64,000 bases of DNA from Actinomycetospora sp. NBRC 106378 (GTDB lineage Bacteria > Actinomycetota > Actinomycetes > Mycobacteriales > Pseudonocardiaceae). This document shows, one piece after another, positions 23,805-62,898 of this stretch. The translations under genes were made by a program, and so were the position numbers. Location: NCBI RefSeq assembly GCF_030269685.1, contig NZ_BSTT01000004.1, forward strand, positions 124,001 through 188,000. The letters are read 5' to 3'. Position 1 is the stretch's first letter. Each line of letters opens with the position of its first letter. A model generated the notes under the pieces. It made no database searches, had not been told where the DNA came from, and was given only the letters and a program-made list of their open reading frames with translations.

Positions 23805-25502
23805 ATGAGCATCCCGTCGGACCTCGAGATCGCCCAGAAGGCGACGCTGAAGCCGCTGGACGACGTCGCCGCGGCCATGGACCTGCCCTCCCACCTGCTG
23901 GAGATGCACGGCCGCGACGTCGCCAAGATCGAGCTCGACGCGATCGACGTGATGGCGGACCGCCCGACGGCCAAGTACGTCGTGGTGACGGCGATCACCC
24001 CGACGCCGCTCGGCGAGGGCAAGACGACGACCACGGTCGGCCTGGGGCAGGCGTTCTCCCACATCGGGCGCCGCGGCGTGATCGCGATCCGCCAGCCCTC
24101 GATGGGGCCGACGTTCGGCATCAAGGGCGGCGCCGCCGGCGGTGGCTACTCGCAGGTCGTGCCGATGGAGAAGTTCAACCTCCACCTCACCGGCGACTTC
24201 CATGCCGTGACCAGCGCCCACAACATGCTCTCGGCGGTGCTGGACAACCACCTCTACCAGGGCAACGCCGCCGGGCTCGACCCGTACCGCGTCACCTGGC
24301 GCCGCGTGCTCGACGTGAACGACCGGGCGCTGCGCAACGTCGTGACCGGGCTCGGTGGGCGGCTGGACGGTGTCCCGCGCGAGTCGGGCTTCGACATCAC
24401 GTCGGCCTCCGAGGTGATGGCGATCCTCGCGCTGTCGAACTCGCTCGAGGAGATGCGCTCGCGGCTCGGGCGGATCGTCGTCGGCTACACCCCGGACGGG
24501 GACGCCGTGACCGCCGAGGACATCCACGGCGCCGGCGCGATGGCCGCGCTGATGCGCGACGCGCTCAAGCCGAACCTCATGCAGACGCTGGAGAACACGC
24601 CGGTGCTGGTGCACGCCGGCCCGTTCGGCAACATCGCCCACGGCAACTCCTCGATCGTCGCCGACCGGATCGGCATCCACGCCGGGGACTTCCTCGTCAC
24701 CGAGGCGGGCTTCGGGGCCGACATGGGGGCCGAGCGCTTCTTCAACATCAAGTGCCGCGCGTCGGGGATGACCCCGGACGCCGCCGTCGTCGTCGCCACC
24801 GTGCGGGCGCTCAAGGCCCACAGCGGCAACCACCGCATCGTCGCGGGCAAGGAGCTGCCGGAGGCGCTGCTCGCCGAGAACCCCGACGAGGTCCACGCCG
24901 GTGGGGCGAACCTGCGCAAGCAGATCGAGAACATGCGCCTGCACGGCGTCTCCCCGGTGGTGTGCATCAACGCCTTCCCCACCGACCACCCGAGCGAGCA
25001 CGCCGCGATCCGCGAGATCGCCGAGTCGCTCGGGGCGCGCGTGGCCGTGTCGACGCATTTCGCGGACGGTGGACGCGGGGCGGCCGAGCTCGCCGAGGCG
25101 GTCGCGGAGGCGGCCGAGGAACCGTCGGACTTCCAGCTCCTCTACCCCGACGGCGCGTCGCTGCGCGAGAAGATCGAGACGGTGGCGACGAAGGTCTACG
25201 GCGCCGACGGCGTCGACTACGCACCGGCCGCGAACACCTCGATCGACCTCTACGAGCGCAACGGGTTCGGCGGCCTGCCGGTCTGCATCGCGAAGACCCA
25301 CCTGTCGATCTCGTCGGACCCGAAGCTGCTCGGCGCCCCCACCGGGTGGCGGATGCCGGTCCGCGAGGTCCGCGCGTCGGTCGGCGCCGGGTTCGTCTAC
25401 CCGATCTGCGGCGACATGCGGACGATGCCGGGTCTGGGCAAGCAGCCGGCTGCGCACTCGATCGACGTCAAGCCCGACGGGACGATCGTGGGGCTGTTCT
25501 AG
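23805..25502 (+). CDS. fhs: Formate--tetrahydrofolate ligase
   Basis: 565 aa. Makes 10-formyl-tetrahydrofolate from formate, tetrahydrofolate and ATP. The P-loop is PTPLGEGKTTTTVGLGQ (about 66-82). Other family blocks are RQPSMGPTFGIKGGAAGGGY, NLHLTGDFHAVTSAHN, VLVHAGPFGNIAHGNSS and FVYPICGDMRTMPGLG. Full length and intact. ATG 23805. The cyclodeaminase-like gene starts on the base after its stop, so the two are co-translated. Together with purU it forms a formate/10-formyl-THF cycle. Confidence 0.97.
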   Translation: MSIPSDLEIAQKATLKPLDDVAAAMDLPSHLLEMHGRDVAKIELDAIDVMADRPTAKYVVVTAITPTPLGEGKTTTTVGLGQAFSHIGRRGVIAIRQPSMGPTFGIKGGAAGGGYSQVVPMEKFNLHLTGDFHAVTSAHNMLSAVLDNHLYQGNAAGLDPYRVTWRRVLDVNDRALRNVVTGLGGRLDGVPRESGFDITSASEVMAILALSNSLEEMRSRLGRIVVGYTPDGDAVTAEDIHGAGAMAALMRDALKPNLMQTLENTPVLVHAGPFGNIAHGNSSIVADRIGIHAGDFLVTEAGFGADMGAERFFNIKCRASGMTPDAAVVVATVRALKAHSGNHRIVAGKELPEALLAENPDEVHAGGANLRKQIENMRLHGVSPVVCINAFPTDHPSEHAAIREIAESLGARVAVSTHFADGGRGAAELAEAVAEAAEEPSDFQLLYPDGASLREKIETVATKVYGADGVDYAPAANTSIDLYERNGFGGLPVCIAKTHLSISSDPKLLGAPTGWRMPVREVRASVGAGFVYPICGDMRTMPGLGKQPAAHSIDVKPDGTIVGLF

Positions 25503-48195: not shown

Positions 48196-49176
48196 CTAGC
48201 TCGCCTTCTCCTTCTCCGCCGGGTCGTCGTCGGACTTCTTCCGGCGCGAGCGGGAGGTGGAGCTCTTCTTCGTCCCCGACGACGAGCCGTCCTCGGACTT
48301 CGTGCCCGACGACTTCTTCCGGGTCGGCTTCTTCTCCGCCGGCTCCTCCGCGGGAGCGGCGTCCGGCTGCTCCGCCGACGACGACGGCTCCGCCGCCTTC
48401 CCGCCCGCGGCCTCCACGGAGCGGCGCAGCGCGGTGAGCAGGTCGGTCATGTCGTCGGTGTCCTCGGCCGGGGCCTCCTCCGGCGTCGGACGACCGCCCC
48501 CGTGCTCGCGCTTGTACTCGATGAGCTCGCCGACGGCCTTGCGGTACTCGTCCTCGAACCCGTCGACCTCGAAGTCGCCGGACAGCGAGTCGATGAGCGA
48601 CGACGCCATCGCCATCTCCTGCGGGCGGACCTCCACGTCGTTGTCCAGCACCGGGAACTCGGCCTCGCGGACCTCGTCCGGCCAGAGCATCGTCTGGAGC
48701 ACGATCGCGTTCTCCCGGACCCGGAGCAGCGCCAGGGTCTCCCGCTGGCGCAGCGCGACCTTCACCACCGCCATCCGGTCGGTCTCGCGCAGGGCCTCGC
48801 GGAGCAGCGAGTAGGGCTTGAGGGCCTTGTTCTCGGGCTCGAGGTAGTAGCTCTTGTCGAGCAGCAGCGGATCGACCTGGTCGGCGGGGACGAACTGCAC
48901 GACGTCGATCTCGTGGCCGGTCGCGGTGGGCAGGGTGGCGAGGTCGTCGTCGTCGAGCATGATCAGCTGCCCGTCGTCGGTCTCGTAACCCTTCGCGATC
49001 TCGGAGTAGGCCACCTCCTCGCCGCAGACCGAGCACGTGCGCTTCTGGCGGATGCGTCCGCCGTCGATCTCGTGCACCTGGTGGAAGCGGATGTCGTGGT
49101 TCGACGTCGCGGCGTAGAGCCGGACCGGGACGTTGACCAGTCCGAACGACACTGCGCCGCTCCAGATCGCGCGCAT
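48196..49176 (-). CDS. ku: Ku protein (non-homologous end joining)
   Basis: 326 aa homodimeric DNA-end-binding protein. It starts MRAIWSGAVSFGLVNVPVRL, the classical bacterial Ku N-terminus, followed by HQVHEIDGGRIRQKRTCSVC (Cys pair), VDPLLLDKSYYLEPENKALK, and the core helix EMAMASSLIDSLSGDFE. The C-terminal ~85 residues are a Lys/Ser/Glu-rich tail that in other species aids DNA binding. ATG 49176 with GAGAGGAG. No complete LigD is in the window; a degenerate ligase-like gene lies 0.9 kb away. Confidence 0.95.
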   Translation of the reverse strand: MRAIWSGAVSFGLVNVPVRLYAATSNHDIRFHQVHEIDGGRIRQKRTCSVCGEEVAYSEIAKGYETDDGQLIMLDDDDLATLPTATGHEIDVVQFVPADQVDPLLLDKSYYLEPENKALKPYSLLREALRETDRMAVVKVALRQRETLALLRVRENAIVLQTMLWPDEVREAEFPVLDNDVEVRPQEMAMASSLIDSLSGDFEVDGFEDEYRKAVGELIEYKREHGGGRPTPEEAPAEDTDDMTDLLTALRRSVEAAGGKAAEPSSSAEQPDAAPAEEPAEKKPTRKKSSGTKSEDGSSSGTKKSSTSRSRRKKSDDDPAEKEKAS

Positions 49177-49999: not shown

Positions 50000-50066
50000 C
50001 CGCCCAGTGTCGCGTTCCGGGGTGTCGGGGACGAGAGTGTCGGACCCACCGGGCACGATGTCGGGC

Positions 50067-50840
50067 ATGCAGGACGTCGGCGTGCGCGGAGCCGGCATCC
50101 GGCCCATGCAGCCGGTGCCGGGGCGGCTGCCCGTGGGCCCGGAGTGGTCCTACGAGGTGGACTGGAGCGGCATCCGGCTGCTCGCCGACGTCGAGGACGG
50201 CGTGCTGTGCCTGCGCACGCTCGAGGGCGACGACGTCACGGCGCGCTTCCCGGAGTTCGCGCCGCTGGCCGACGTGGTGCCCGACGGGCTCTTCGACGGC
50301 GAGGCGGTGCTGCTCGACGCGGGCCAGCCGTCGTCGCTCGCCCTGTTCGACCGGCTGCGCCGCGCCGACCCGCGCAAGGCCCGCACGCTCGCCCGGGCCC
50401 GGCCGGCCATCCTCATGGTCTACGACGTCCTGCGGCTCTACGGCGTCCCGCTCGCCGCGCGCCCGCTCGACGAGCGCCGGGCCACCCTGGGGCGGCTGAG
50501 CCTCGACGAGGTCGGGCGCATCCAGGTCTCCCCGGTCTACGACGACGGGCCCGCGCTGCTCGCCGGGGTCCGGGAGCAGGGGCTGCCCGGGGTCATGGCC
50601 CGCCGGCGCGACACGCCCTACGAGGCGGACGCCGACGGGGACTGGCTGCGGGTCGTGGCGCCCGCCGAGGCGCCCACCGCGCCGACGGCGGCCACGGCCG
50701 TCGACCTCCCGACCGCCGAGCAGCCCCCGGCCGGCCCGGCGTTGTCGGCCCTGTCGCCGAGCCGGCCCGACCCGGCGTCGGGCAAGGTCCCGCGCGGCCG
50801 CCACAGCCGACGGCAGGAGGAGTCGCCCGGGCTCTGGTGA
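50067..50840 (+). CDS. Degenerate ATP-dependent DNA ligase-like (adenylation domain) protein, lacking catalytic lysine
   Basis: 257 aa. The fold pattern follows the LigD/LigC-type adenylation domain: YEVDWSGIRLLADV is motif I, where the nucleophilic Lys is Asp32 and the following Asp is Ser34; LFDGEAVLLD resembles the motif around the conserved Glu; VYDVLRLYG is motif III; PGVMARR replaces EGVxAKR; and WLRVV replaces WxKxK. No OB fold follows, only a polar tail. It cannot form ligase-AMP in the usual way. ATG 50067 (50058 possible). Near ku, so an NHEJ accessory role is possible. Confidence 0.75.
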   Translation: MQDVGVRGAGIRPMQPVPGRLPVGPEWSYEVDWSGIRLLADVEDGVLCLRTLEGDDVTARFPEFAPLADVVPDGLFDGEAVLLDAGQPSSLALFDRLRRADPRKARTLARARPAILMVYDVLRLYGVPLAARPLDERRATLGRLSLDEVGRIQVSPVYDDGPALLAGVREQGLPGVMARRRDTPYEADADGDWLRVVAPAEAPTAPTAATAVDLPTAEQPPAGPALSALSPSRPDPASGKVPRGRHSRRQEESPGLW

Positions 50841-56067: not shown

Positions 56068-56153
56068 GGTAGCGTGTCCGAGCGGCCAAAGGAGCACGCC
56101 TCGAAAGCGTGTGTGGGTTCTGCCCACCGTGGGTTCGAATCCCACCGCTACCG
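56068..56153 (+). tRNA. tRNA-Ser (anticodon CGA)
   Basis: Acceptor stem GGTAGCG pairs with CGCTACC (56146-56152), discriminator G at 56153, encoded CCA at 56154-56156. Anticodon loop CTCGAAA gives CGA, reading UCG. A long variable arm (GTGGGTTCTGCCCAC) is typical of tRNA-Ser, and the T-arm is GTGGG-TTCGAAT-CCCAC. It starts 10 nt after tadA and could be read through from that operon. Confidence 0.97.
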
Positions 56154-56162
56154 CCAGCCAGC

Positions 56163-59283: not shown

Positions 59284-59566
59284 TCGGGCGCGCACGCCCG
59301 CGCAAGGGCCGACCGGGCGAGCCCCGTCGTCCGGCGGCCTCCCTTCGCCGTGCGCCACCCGCCGGACCGCGCGACGATGTCGGGTCCGCCGTTCGTCGCG
59401 TGGTGTCGCTGTCCGGCCGCAGCACGCCGTGGCGCGCCGCGGAACCCGGCGTCACTGTCGGGGGGTCTGGCTACCGTGACGACCGTCGGGAAGACGCGTC
59501 GGTGCGTGCCCGGCGGGTGGCGTCGGAGCGGGCCGGCGCGTCGCGATGGGACCGGGAGGCGTGCGC

Positions 59567-61363
59567 ATGGCGTCTGGTGCGGCTGCCCCGGCCGAGGTCC
59601 TGCCCGGCGTTCCCGGGCCGCGTGGCGCCGCACGCCCGATGCTGGCCTCGGCGGGCGAACTGCCCCGCGGGGCGGGATGGGCCTTCGAGTTCGTGTGGTC
59701 GGGCCTGCGCTGCTTCGCGTACGCCCGGGACGGCGAGCTCCGCCTCGTCGACGCCGACGGGCACGACGTGACGGCGGGGTTCCCGGAGCTGGGCCTCCCG
59801 GCCGCCCACGGTCTGGTGCTCGACGGGGTCGTCGTCGCCAAGGACCCGGTGGGTCGGCCGAGCATGACGCGCCTGCGGCGCCGGCGTCGGGTGGCCCGGC
59901 CCTCACGGGCCCTGGTCAGCGGAACGCCGGTCTCCTACTACGTGTTCGACGTGCTCGAGATCGACGGGCGCTCCACCGCGCGCCTGCCCTACCGGCAGCG
60001 CCGCGAGCTGCTCACCGAGATCGACCTCGTGGGCGGCAACCTGGTGGTGCCGCCGTCGTTCACCGGCGTGAGCGCCGAGGAGATCACCAGTACGGCGCGG
60101 CAGTACGGCCTCGAGGGCGTGGTGGCCAAGCGGCTCGAGTCGACCTACCAGAGCGGCCGCCGCTCCCGGAGCTGGATCACCGCGGAGATCACGCGGGCGC
60201 AGGACGTCGTGGTCGGGGGCTGGCTGCCGCCGCGGGGGAGCCCCGACGGCGTCGGCTCGCTGCTGCTCGGCGTGCCCGACGACGGGGTGCTCCGCTACGT
60301 CGGGCGGGTGTCCACCGGGGTCACGGCCGCCGCCCGCCGGGAGGTCCTCGACGCGTCGGTCGGCCTGGACCGCCTGGTCAGCCCCTTCCACGGGGACCTG
60401 CCCGCCGACGTCGAGGCGGCCGCGCAGTGGCTCGCGCCGCGCCTGGTCGGGCGGGTGGAACACCGCCGCTGGACGCCGACGGGGCTCCTGGGGCGCCCGG
60501 TGTGGCAGGGCCTGCGGGCAGGGACGCACCCCGCGACCGTGCACGCCCCCGTGCTCGCGGCACCGGTCGTCGCGACGGATCTCGCGCTCGACGATCTCGA
60601 GCGGGTGGACGGGCCGGGCGGCGCCGGCTCGGGGAACAGGGCCTCCGTGGACACCGCGGAGACCGACGTCGTGGCGCCCCTGCCGCCCGGCGTCCTCGTG
60701 CCGGCGGCCGCCGAGGTCGTCCTGCCCGACGCCGAGGTCGAGGCGGCGCTGCGGTCGCGCTTCTCCGCGCACTTCGTGCACAACGCGCTGACCGCCATCG
60801 CGACCTTCGTGCGGGTGGACCCGACGCGTGCCCGGGAGCTGCTCACCGAGTTCGCCGACTTCACCCGCTACTCGTTCCGCGCCTCGGACACGACCACGAC
60901 GGTGGCCGAGGAGCTGCGCAACGCCCGGCGCTACCTCACGCTCGAGCAGGCCCGCTTCGGCGCGCGGCTCGGGGTGGAGATCACGGTGGCGCCCGAGGTG
61001 GAGAACGTGGTGCTCCCGCCGTTCGTGGTGGCGCCGCTGGTGGAGAACGCCGTCCGCCACGGCGTCGAACCCGTGCTGGGCGGCGGCACCGTGCGCATCA
61101 CCGCGGCGGGTGCGGGCGCCGACTGCGTCGTGACGATCTCCGACGACGGGGCCGGGATGGGCCCTGAGGCGTCGCGCGCCGCCTCGCAGGTCGACGCCCG
61201 CCACGGCGGGATCGCCGAGGTCACGCGTCGCCTGCGTGCCGCGTACGGCGGGCGGTGCGACCTACACGTCGACAGCCGTGCGGGGGTCGGCACCACGGTC
61301 CGGCTGCGGGTCCCGGCCCGGCGCGCCGAGGAACCGCCGGCCGATCGACTGCTGGTGGGCTGA
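59567..61363 (+). CDS. Fusion of a degenerate ATP-dependent DNA ligase module with a LytS-type histidine kinase
   Basis: 598 aa, no membrane helix. Residues about 20-215 follow the LigD-type adenylation domain: FEFVWSGLR (motif I, catalytic Lys replaced by Val43), YYVFDVLE (124-131, motif III), EGVVAKR (183-189, motif IV intact), SWITAEI (motif V lysines lost). Residues about 215-330 fit the ligase OB fold (VVVGGWLPPRG, LRYVGRVSTGV, PVWQGLR). From about 385 a LytS/YehU-type kinase follows: FSAHFVHNALTAI (phospho-acceptor His402), PLVENAVRHG (Asn494), DDGAGM (526), GTTVRLRVP. The ATG at 59567 has GGGAGG. No LytTR regulator is adjacent. Confidence 0.85.
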   Translation: MASGAAAPAEVLPGVPGPRGAARPMLASAGELPRGAGWAFEFVWSGLRCFAYARDGELRLVDADGHDVTAGFPELGLPAAHGLVLDGVVVAKDPVGRPSMTRLRRRRRVARPSRALVSGTPVSYYVFDVLEIDGRSTARLPYRQRRELLTEIDLVGGNLVVPPSFTGVSAEEITSTARQYGLEGVVAKRLESTYQSGRRSRSWITAEITRAQDVVVGGWLPPRGSPDGVGSLLLGVPDDGVLRYVGRVSTGVTAAARREVLDASVGLDRLVSPFHGDLPADVEAAAQWLAPRLVGRVEHRRWTPTGLLGRPVWQGLRAGTHPATVHAPVLAAPVVATDLALDDLERVDGPGGAGSGNRASVDTAETDVVAPLPPGVLVPAAAEVVLPDAEVEAALRSRFSAHFVHNALTAIATFVRVDPTRARELLTEFADFTRYSFRASDTTTTVAEELRNARRYLTLEQARFGARLGVEITVAPEVENVVLPPFVVAPLVENAVRHGVEPVLGGGTVRITAAGAGADCVVTISDDGAGMGPEASRAASQVDARHGGIAEVTRRLRAAYGGRCDLHVDSRAGVGTTVRLRVPARRAEEPPADRLLVG

Positions 61364-62100: not shown

Positions 62101-62898
62101 GTGCGCGTCCTCGCCGTCGACTGGTCCGGCGACCTGCGCGCGGCGGCCCGGCGCATCCGGGTGGCCGAGGCGGCGCCCGGACGGCTGCTCGGCGTGCGCG
62201 GGGGCCTCGACCGCGCAGGAGTCGGCGCGATGCTGGCGGAGCTGCGCGACCCGCCCGCACCGGTCGTCGTCGGGATGGACTTCTCCTTCGGGCTGCCGGC
62301 CTGGTTCCCGGCGCGGTACGGCGCGACGTCGCTGCCCGACGTGTGGGACCTCGCCCGCGACGAGGGCGAGGGCTGGCTGCGGGCGTGCGATCCGCCGTTC
62401 TGGGGGCGGCCCGGCACCCGGAAGCCCGCCGACGTCGAGCTCTACCGCGACACCGAGCGCGCGGCCCGGGACCGCGGCCTGAACCCGCTGTCGACGTTCC
62501 AGATCGGGGGCGCCGGGGCGGTCGGGACGGGCTCGGTGCGCGGAATGGCGCTGCTGGGGCAGTGGCGCCGCGAGGGCATCGGCGTGTGGCCGCTCGACGC
62601 GGCTCCGGGACCGCGCGGGGTGCTCGTCGTCGAGGTCTACCCGCGGGCGATGACCGGGCCCGTGGTGAAGTCCTCGGCGGACGCGCGACGGGCGCTCGTC
62701 GACGCCGATCCCCGCATCCCGGCGGACCTGCGGGTCGCGGCGACCGCGACCGAGGACGCCTTCGACGCCGCCTACGCGGCGCTCGGGATGGCCGAGCACG
62801 CCGCCGAGCTCGCGGCGCTGCCCGCCTGCACCGACCCGGCGTCGGGAACCGAGGGACGGCTGTGGCTGCCGCCTACAGCGCCAGGGTCGCCTCGCTGA
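62101..62898 (+). CDS. DUF429-like (RNase H-fold) hypothetical protein
   Basis: 265 aa. VRVLAVDWSGDLRAAARRIR and VVVGMDFSFGLPAWF show the acidic residues of a ribonuclease-H-like fold (VDWS, GMDFSF), and LVVEVYPRAMTGPVVKSS, with ATATEDAFDAAYAALGMAEH, carries further conserved acids typical of DUF429. The biochemical role is unknown; possibly a nuclease. GTG 62101. Its 3' end overlaps the convergent oxidoreductase gene by 26 bp. Confidence 0.75.
   Translation: MRVLAVDWSGDLRAAARRIRVAEAAPGRLLGVRGGLDRAGVGAMLAELRDPPAPVVVGMDFSFGLPAWFPARYGATSLPDVWDLARDEGEGWLRACDPPFWGRPGTRKPADVELYRDTERAARDRGLNPLSTFQIGGAGAVGTGSVRGMALLGQWRREGIGVWPLDAAPGPRGVLVVEVYPRAMTGPVVKSSADARRALVDADPRIPADLRVAATATEDAFDAAYAALGMAEHAAELAALPACTDPASGTEGRLWLPPTAPGSPR

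Follow-up and report, generated by a model that had tools for sequence, protein, structure and literature searches.

Two described systems come closest to the protein encoded at 59567..61363 (+) of the window, i.e., the whole 64,000 nt stretch of Actinomycetospora sp. NBRC 106378 DNA analysed here (part of contig C4 of its genome, G000). The LIG domain of LigD in bacterial NHEJ (M. tuberculosis Rv0938; structures 1vs0 and 6nhz) has the same fold, with the same order of nucleotidyltransferase (NTase) and then OB domain, and is 34–37% identical over about 300 residues; the fusion gene is also linked to Ku in three of its four genera. In contrast to M. tuberculosis (Mtb) LigD, the fusion lacks equivalents of the motif I lysine, Arg501, Glu530 and Lys635, has neither a POL nor a PE domain, and is joined to a kinase. 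The LytS/BtsS-type kinases (PF06580) likewise have a DHp domain with HFxxN and a HATPase_c domain, but the fusion shows no evident membrane part, carries a LIG domain as input, lacks a dedicated regulator gene next to it in 16 of the 17 genomes in which it was located, and has a decayed ATPase domain in one genus (g5). LytS-type kinases are usually, though not always, encoded beside a LytTR regulator gene.

A precedent for a catalytic part turned to another use is DivL, the repurposed histidine kinase of Caulobacter described in part of PMC4211667; DivL has a PAS input, whereas the fusion keeps its acceptor histidine and has lost the ATPase in one genus only. Neither a bacterial kinase with the fold of a DNA-repair enzyme as its input nor a paper describing a ligase-kinase fusion was found in the open-licence literature. 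To our knowledge, bacterial Ku has been described only as a repair factor.

Architecture and decay of the two halves

The first-pass annotation described a single 598-aa frame joining a degenerate ligase to a kinase, and this frame was found uninterrupted at 59567–61363, beginning with the ATG at 59567. A likely ribosome-binding site, GGGAGG (59554..59559, +), lies 7 bases 5′ of the ATG in the window and in all three aligned congeners, which makes the start plausible. Between about 59220 and 59560, the window and the same three congeners share two identical or almost identical blocks, one around GTCGGGGGGTCTGGCTACCGTG and the other around GTCGCTGTCCGGCCGCAGC, perhaps promoter or regulatory sites.

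Four Pfam families match the protein above their cut-offs: DNA_ligase_A_M at residues 35–204 (PF01068, 65.5 bits), DNA_ligase_A_C at 227–317 (PF04679, 62.6 bits), His_kinase at 394–468 (PF06580, 59.7 bits) and HATPase_c at 487–585 (PF02518, 42.7 bits). The pseudo-ligase NTase domain covers residues 20–222 (59624..60232, +), with the Mtb LigD LIG structures 1vs0 and 6nhz among its best matches, and is followed by the OB-fold domain, seen also in the structure model (residues 223–320; 60233..60526, +), a disordered linker that is weakly constrained in sequence (residues 331–387, pLDDT <50; 60557..60727, +), the LytS-type DHp domain (residues 394–470; 60746..60976, +) and the HATPase_c domain (residues 480–587; 61004..61327, +). 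The individual motifs named in the first-pass annotation were also located: Val43 in place of the motif I lysine (59693–59695, +), YYVFDVLE from residue 124, EGVVAKR from 183, the phospho-acceptor His402 (60770–60772, +), the N-box from 492 and the G1 box from 526; the G2 box, from 546, is weak (HGGIAEV).

An AlphaFold2 model built from 28 rows (mean pLDDT 77.7, pTM 0.51) is confident for the ligase and kinase domains and leaves the linker disordered. By sequence comparison, the closest solved relative of residues 23–325 is the LIG domain of Mtb LigD, and that of residues 397–584 is the histidine kinase 6swj. The comparison with the LigD ligase domain that had been proposed gave a Z of 26.6 to 1vs0, with an rmsd of 13.2 over 298 residues in which the two domains are opened differently. 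Nick-bound human Lig1 (6q1v) matched with a Z of 26.4 and an rmsd of 3.9 over 312 residues, a likeness that is no evidence of DNA binding. The ligase part thus has a DNA ligase fold throughout; the structure search barely probed the kinase half.

Residues of the ligase half were compared among 20 fusion rows and 17 unfused rows (L051, L070, L072–L075, L077–L079, L081–L088), with Mtb LigD as reference and its contacts taken from PMC8656161. A fusion copy with Arg48 changed to Pro and a disturbed kinase end (L028) stands outside the 20, and two further unfused sequences, both with the motif I lysine (L076, L080), outside the 17. The loss of this lysine, reported from the window, holds for 29/29 readable fusions, in which V, L, A, S, T or G takes its place (the thirtieth, L014, is without the motif I region); all 17 unfused relatives keep it. 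Equivalents of Mtb Lys481, Arg501 and Glu530 are gone in all 20 fusions, the losses of Arg501 and Glu530 being additional to those noticed before. Both motif V lysines had been described as lost. For the first (Lys635) this stands, as it is gone in 19 of 20 fusions (Arg in 6). The second (Lys637) is also missing from 16/17 unfused relatives, so that this half of the description probably reflects an ancestral state and no degeneration. In Mtb LigD, nick sealing is reportedly abolished when Lys637 is changed to Ala (PMC8656161).

Other losses follow the clades. Glu183 (Mtb Glu613, metal-binding) is lost in all seven rows of genera g3 and g38 and is Glu or Asp elsewhere, and the motif III residue Phe127 is lost in 7/7 rows of g5. 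Retained in every one of the 20 rows are Glu41 and Arg48 (Mtb Glu479 and Arg486) and the equivalent of Mtb Arg629, and in 18 of them Lys188 (Mtb Lys618). The fusion therefore has the NTase and OB folds of a ligase without the motif I lysine (KxDGxR), Glu530, Arg501 and Lys635, and judged by these residues it would fail the defining test of an ATP-dependent ligase. The NCBIfam model NHEJ_ligase_lig (cut-off 227.75 bits) scores the window fusion at 184, below the cut-off, and a g3 fusion (P0007; L093:10594-12147, −) at 241.5, which passes without the catalytic lysine.

Selection was gauged by rough Nei–Gojobori dN/dS values. Across eight Actinomycetospora pairs these were 0.04–0.18 for the NTase domain and 0.05–0.22 for the OB domain, compared with 0.11–0.82 for the linker (residues 335–392; at least 0.45 in seven of the eight). 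Two g3 pairs gave 0.11 and 0.21 for the ligase, and one g5 pair 0.38 (LIG), 0.36 (OB) and 0.45 (DHp), indicating looser selection in g5. Low values in the domains together with the lost catalytic residues indicate that the ligase fold is under purifying selection and that its chemistry is not. The net charge of the LIG domains ranges from +1 to +16 in the 20 fusion rows and from −4 to +15 in the 17 unfused relatives; the ranges overlap and the rows are related, and on the whole the fusion domains appear at least as basic as the unfused ones.

In the kinase half, the phospho-acceptor histidine and the asparagine of HFxxN are retained in 18/18 aligned fusions. The DHp domain of these 18 is 45–71% identical to that of the LytS of the same genome, and the ATPase domain 14–51%. 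The eight Actinomycetospora pairs give dN/dS values of 0–0.30 (DHp) and 0.02–0.24 (ATPase), the two g3 pairs 0.78 and 0.28 for the ATPase, and the ATPase remnant of g5 about 1 (one pair, 38 codons), so that the ATPase is under looser selection outside Actinomycetospora. N-box and G1 box are kept in Actinomycetospora and largely present in g3, where the G2 box is missing and HATPase_c falls below the Pfam cut-off in the member tested. The g5 fusions (L023–L026, L033, L102) have lost the N-box asparagine in all six rows read and end early, without the C-terminal half of the ATPase part; the DHp histidine stays, and the member searched has no Pfam match to HATPase_c.

The window protein has the LytS-type features looked for, namely His_kinase and HATPase_c above cut-off, the acceptor histidine, the N-box asparagine and the G1 box. 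Going by motifs only, the fusion would pass as a LytS-type kinase in Actinomycetospora and fail in g5. The earlier description of a soluble kinase agrees with a transmitter that has no membrane segment evident by eye. As a description of a kinase it fits the motifs of Actinomycetospora and does not extend to g5, where the loss of the N-box asparagine and the C-terminal half of the ATPase means that kinase activity cannot be the common function of the whole family.

Occurrence and origin

The family was sampled with 297 genomes, and the fusion was found in 17 of 18 from Actinomycetospora (the lone exception is 83% complete), 10 of 11 of genus g3, both of g38, one of which (G037) has two copies including the disturbed L028, and at least 22 of 25 of g5. 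Outside the 22 stand two g5 genomes matching only to residue 358 (G122, G284) and one in which both halves appeared in one search only (G292). Beyond its source, the fusion is thus present in most sampled genomes of four genera, all of one family. A scan of a genome collection returned 34 loci, 15 of which carry the fusion (L036–L050), all from Actinomycetospora and with 64–89% identity in the best segment; the patterns were derived from the window protein, which favours close relatives.

A frameshift or an assembly join had been named as the finding that would undo the fusion, as had homologues in which the halves are always separate genes. The two halves share one frame in many separate assemblies, from many species in the four genera; no supporting evidence for such an artefact was found, and it can be regarded as refuted.

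In a tree of the ligase half (41 rows, 19 fusions and 22 others), the fusions lie on one side of a single branch (support 99/94). In that of the kinase half (47 rows, comprising 18 fusions, 21 canonical LytS and eight others) they again form one branch (73/92), apart from the canonical LytS rows in all 200 bootstrap trees. L028, the second G037 copy, was included. Both half-trees recover the subgroups g3 with g38, and Actinomycetospora (g1) with g5. The simplest history consistent with these trees would be one fusion event followed by vertical descent, the kinase half being less sure because of moderate support and long branches.

Searches outside the family could miss a diverged fusion. At the level of the order (397 genomes), no listed match outside the family at E 1e-60 or better spans both halves. 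The same holds for the class (394 genomes), a weak negative because even the fusion of the window is represented there by its ligase half alone. Among 80 genomes with good ligase matches, 49 have a PF06580 protein and none has a PF06580 match in the frame of the listed ligase. Of 1359 matching plasmid records, none has one place covering 80% of the query, and the 25 matches listed cover residues 25–317 only.

Ku and partner genes

The only Ku match of G000 lies in the window (48196..49176, −; PF02735, 173.7 bits). The linkage of the fusion to Ku is a new observation, beyond the first-pass annotation. In g3, the fusion follows Ku on the same strand in all seven genomes with both located (G002, G048, G080, G121, G154, G168, G191), with gaps of 28–130 bases by gene calls at four loci (L090–L093); at L094 the gene is split by the caller. 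In both g38 genomes Ku adjoins the fusion convergently; G037 has the disturbed L028 next to Ku and its full-length copy (C188) on a contig where no Ku was matched. In five of five Actinomycetospora genomes the fusion is 9–11 kb from Ku with other genes between, distances that are not independent because the synteny is common. In g5, Ku is near the fusion in none of eight genomes, being on another contig in six and megabases away in two.

One gene from Ku, the window carries a second pseudo-ligase of 260 aa (50058..50840, +), unfused, with the motif I lysine changed to Asp and without an OB fold. Its NTase dN/dS is 0.10 and 0.18 (two pairs). Orthologues in other genera are 51–57% identical to it (P0004), compared with 33% for a fusion LIG domain. 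G037 has the order second pseudo-ligase, Ku, fusion, the same content as 48196–49176, 50058–50840 and 59567 onward in the window. In three g5 genomes (L134, L135, L136) the Ku-adjacent orthologues retain both the lysine and the OB fold, but the lysine is Glu in G104 (L137) and Arg in G037 (L096), so that ligases beside Ku appear to have lost their activity on more than one occasion. These stand-alone ligases are, like the fusion, LigD-type and lose the motif I lysine in some genera; unlike it, they are unfused and of a separate lineage, in which decay, as in the window, also took the OB fold.

Downstream of the fusion, a gene without a family match (62101..62898, +) is kept in 15/15 congener loci and in L040 starts 17 bases after the fusion stop, by gene calls. 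Its product has no NCBIfam match, and none in Pfam with the threshold relaxed to E 5; by eye, we take it to be reminiscent of DUF429-like proteins, and it is a possible partner of the fusion. Two tRNA-Ser genes are also present in the window (24754–24846, −, anticodon tga; 56068–56156, +, anticodon cga). Three proteins tried as candidates for anti-phage defence gave no PADLOC match, and this was rejected. Upstream regions of 14 loci were searched with LexA-like and PafBC-like patterns: no LexA-like box had fewer than two mismatches (two-mismatch matches in 8/14, without a chance control), and none of the 14 had a PafBC-like box; a single PafBC-like match came from the reverse strand ahead of Ku at the g3 locus L093.

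The nearest relative of the kinase half in G000 is P0002, a LytS-type kinase of 401 aa (52% identity over 205 residues) that has, judged by eye, a membrane segment at its N-terminus. About 3.5 kb downstream of it, on contig C22, lies the only LytTR regulator of G000 (P0003), whose best NCBIfam equivalog is BtsR, below cut-off. G000 therefore has two LytS kinases and one LytTR regulator. Seven of the 17 fusion genomes (G000, G042, G118, G002, G080, G154, G104) have this set of exactly two PF06580 kinases with a single LytTR, and four of four fusion-free genomes (G001, G006, G008, G546) have one of each. The window fusion has no adjacent LytTR gene, and among the 17 fusion genomes located only G192 (g5) has one within about 5 kb (L103:15527-16351, +). 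In the simplest genomes, the fusion is thus without a regulator of its own; the other ten have two or more LytTR genes, so that the fusion need not share one in them.

Possible functions

The reading we tentatively prefer is that of a signalling protein derived from NHEJ, in which the dead LigD domain may dock on Ku or DNA ends and steer the LytS transmitter. A duplicated LigD ligase domain, probably beside Ku, would have been fused once, in an ancestor within the family, to a duplicated LytS transmitter, and the fused LIG domain would have lost catalysis. For Mtb and B. subtilis, contacts with Ku are reported or suggested to be made by the LIG domain itself (PMC13201618), so the dead domain, with its fold and basic charge kept, could retain such docking, presumably on Ku, clamping DNA ends, or both. 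Docking would alter the state of the linked DHp dimer, and the output would pass through the DHp histidine to a LytTR regulator, the sole one in the simplest genomes. In Actinomycetospora, with its ATPase motifs largely intact, the fusion's own kinase could serve; in g5, with its apparently dead ATPase part, the likeliest route would be pairing with, or phosphate from, the canonical LytS. Mixed dimers, cross-talk, the signal and the regulon are steps that we infer. If it works at all, the fusion would act as a LytS-like transmitter that takes its input through a pseudo-ligase. The more specific proposal of a two-component double-strand-break sensor, whose dead LigD domain reads Ku-bound ends and which, by way of the borrowed LytTR regulator, converts end-joining into transcriptional output independent of RecA/LexA, is possible but doubtful. 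Against the preferred reading stand the lack of a nearby Ku in g5, the looser selection in g5 and in the g3 ATPase, the disturbed copy beside Ku in G037, the 9–11 kb to Ku in the syntenic Actinomycetospora genomes, the two or more LytTR genes of ten fusion genomes with only G192 having one near the fusion, the overlapping charge ranges, and the lack of a clear LexA-like or PafBC-like box.

The linkage to Ku would also suit a scaffold bridging DNA ends, with no signalling, in which the kinase half only dimerises and two dead LIG domains hold two Ku-bound ends. The better preservation of the DHp than of the ATPase domain and the loss of the latter in g5 fit this as well, but a mere dimeriser should have no need of the acceptor histidine and HFxxN asparagine found in 18/18 fusions; the N-box and G1 box of Actinomycetospora and, largely, of g3, and the ATPase dN/dS of 0.02–0.24 in Actinomycetospora also count against it. 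That the acceptor histidine survives next to a decayed ATPase speaks more for phosphate passing through the fusion, or for a mixed dimer, than for a pure scaffold, which we consider unlikely. A modulator of the canonical LytS through mixed dimers, its input unrelated to DNA breaks, would account for the high DHp identity to the LytS of the same genome and for the lack of a regulator gene for the fusion in the simplest genomes, and has a precedent in RetS acting on GacS (PMC4866733, in the part available); it leaves the Ku linkage and the kept LIG fold unexplained, and there is little to recommend it.

The first-pass annotation had proposed that the ligase fold was re-used as a sensing input for ATP/ADP state or for DNA ends. 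Re-use agrees with a dead, selected fold placed ahead of a transmitter. Sensing of DNA ends gains from adjacency to Ku in two genera and proximity in a third, and is weakened by g5. The ATP/ADP branch fares worse. A dead pocket might bind AMP, ATP, NAD or DNA-adenylate non-covalently and report it, as Glu41 and Arg48 (whose Mtb LigD counterparts contact adenine and ribose) are kept in 20/20 fusions and Lys188 in 18/20, and crystals of Mtb LigD in which Met replaces Lys481 still contain bound ATP (PMC8656161). The retained residues may, however, be structural, the phosphate contacts Arg501 and Lys635 are largely gone, and Lys481 and Glu530 are missing in all clades. Since the clades lost different pocket residues, Phe127 in g5 and Glu183 in g3/g38, no common pocket remains, and a nucleotide sensor is improbable. 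A slowly decaying relict without specific function is very improbable: missing catalytic residues, the further decay in g5 (the ATPase remnant at dN/dS about 1, from that one pair of 38 codons) and the disturbed g38 copy speak for it, but the fusion is found in most sampled genomes of four genera and is under strong purifying selection in Actinomycetospora.

For annotation, the g3 member is a warning, as it passes the NCBI threshold for an NHEJ ligase without the catalytic lysine. Related genera display a series of pseudoenzymes, from intact LigD, through a dead domain with a largely intact kinase, to a dead domain with a dying kinase. Under the preferred reading of an NHEJ-derived signalling protein, the frequent encoding of the fusion beside Ku suggests a way for bacteria to signal broken DNA and, if this is true, bacteria would possess a DNA-break signal of the phosphotransfer type that is tied to Ku.
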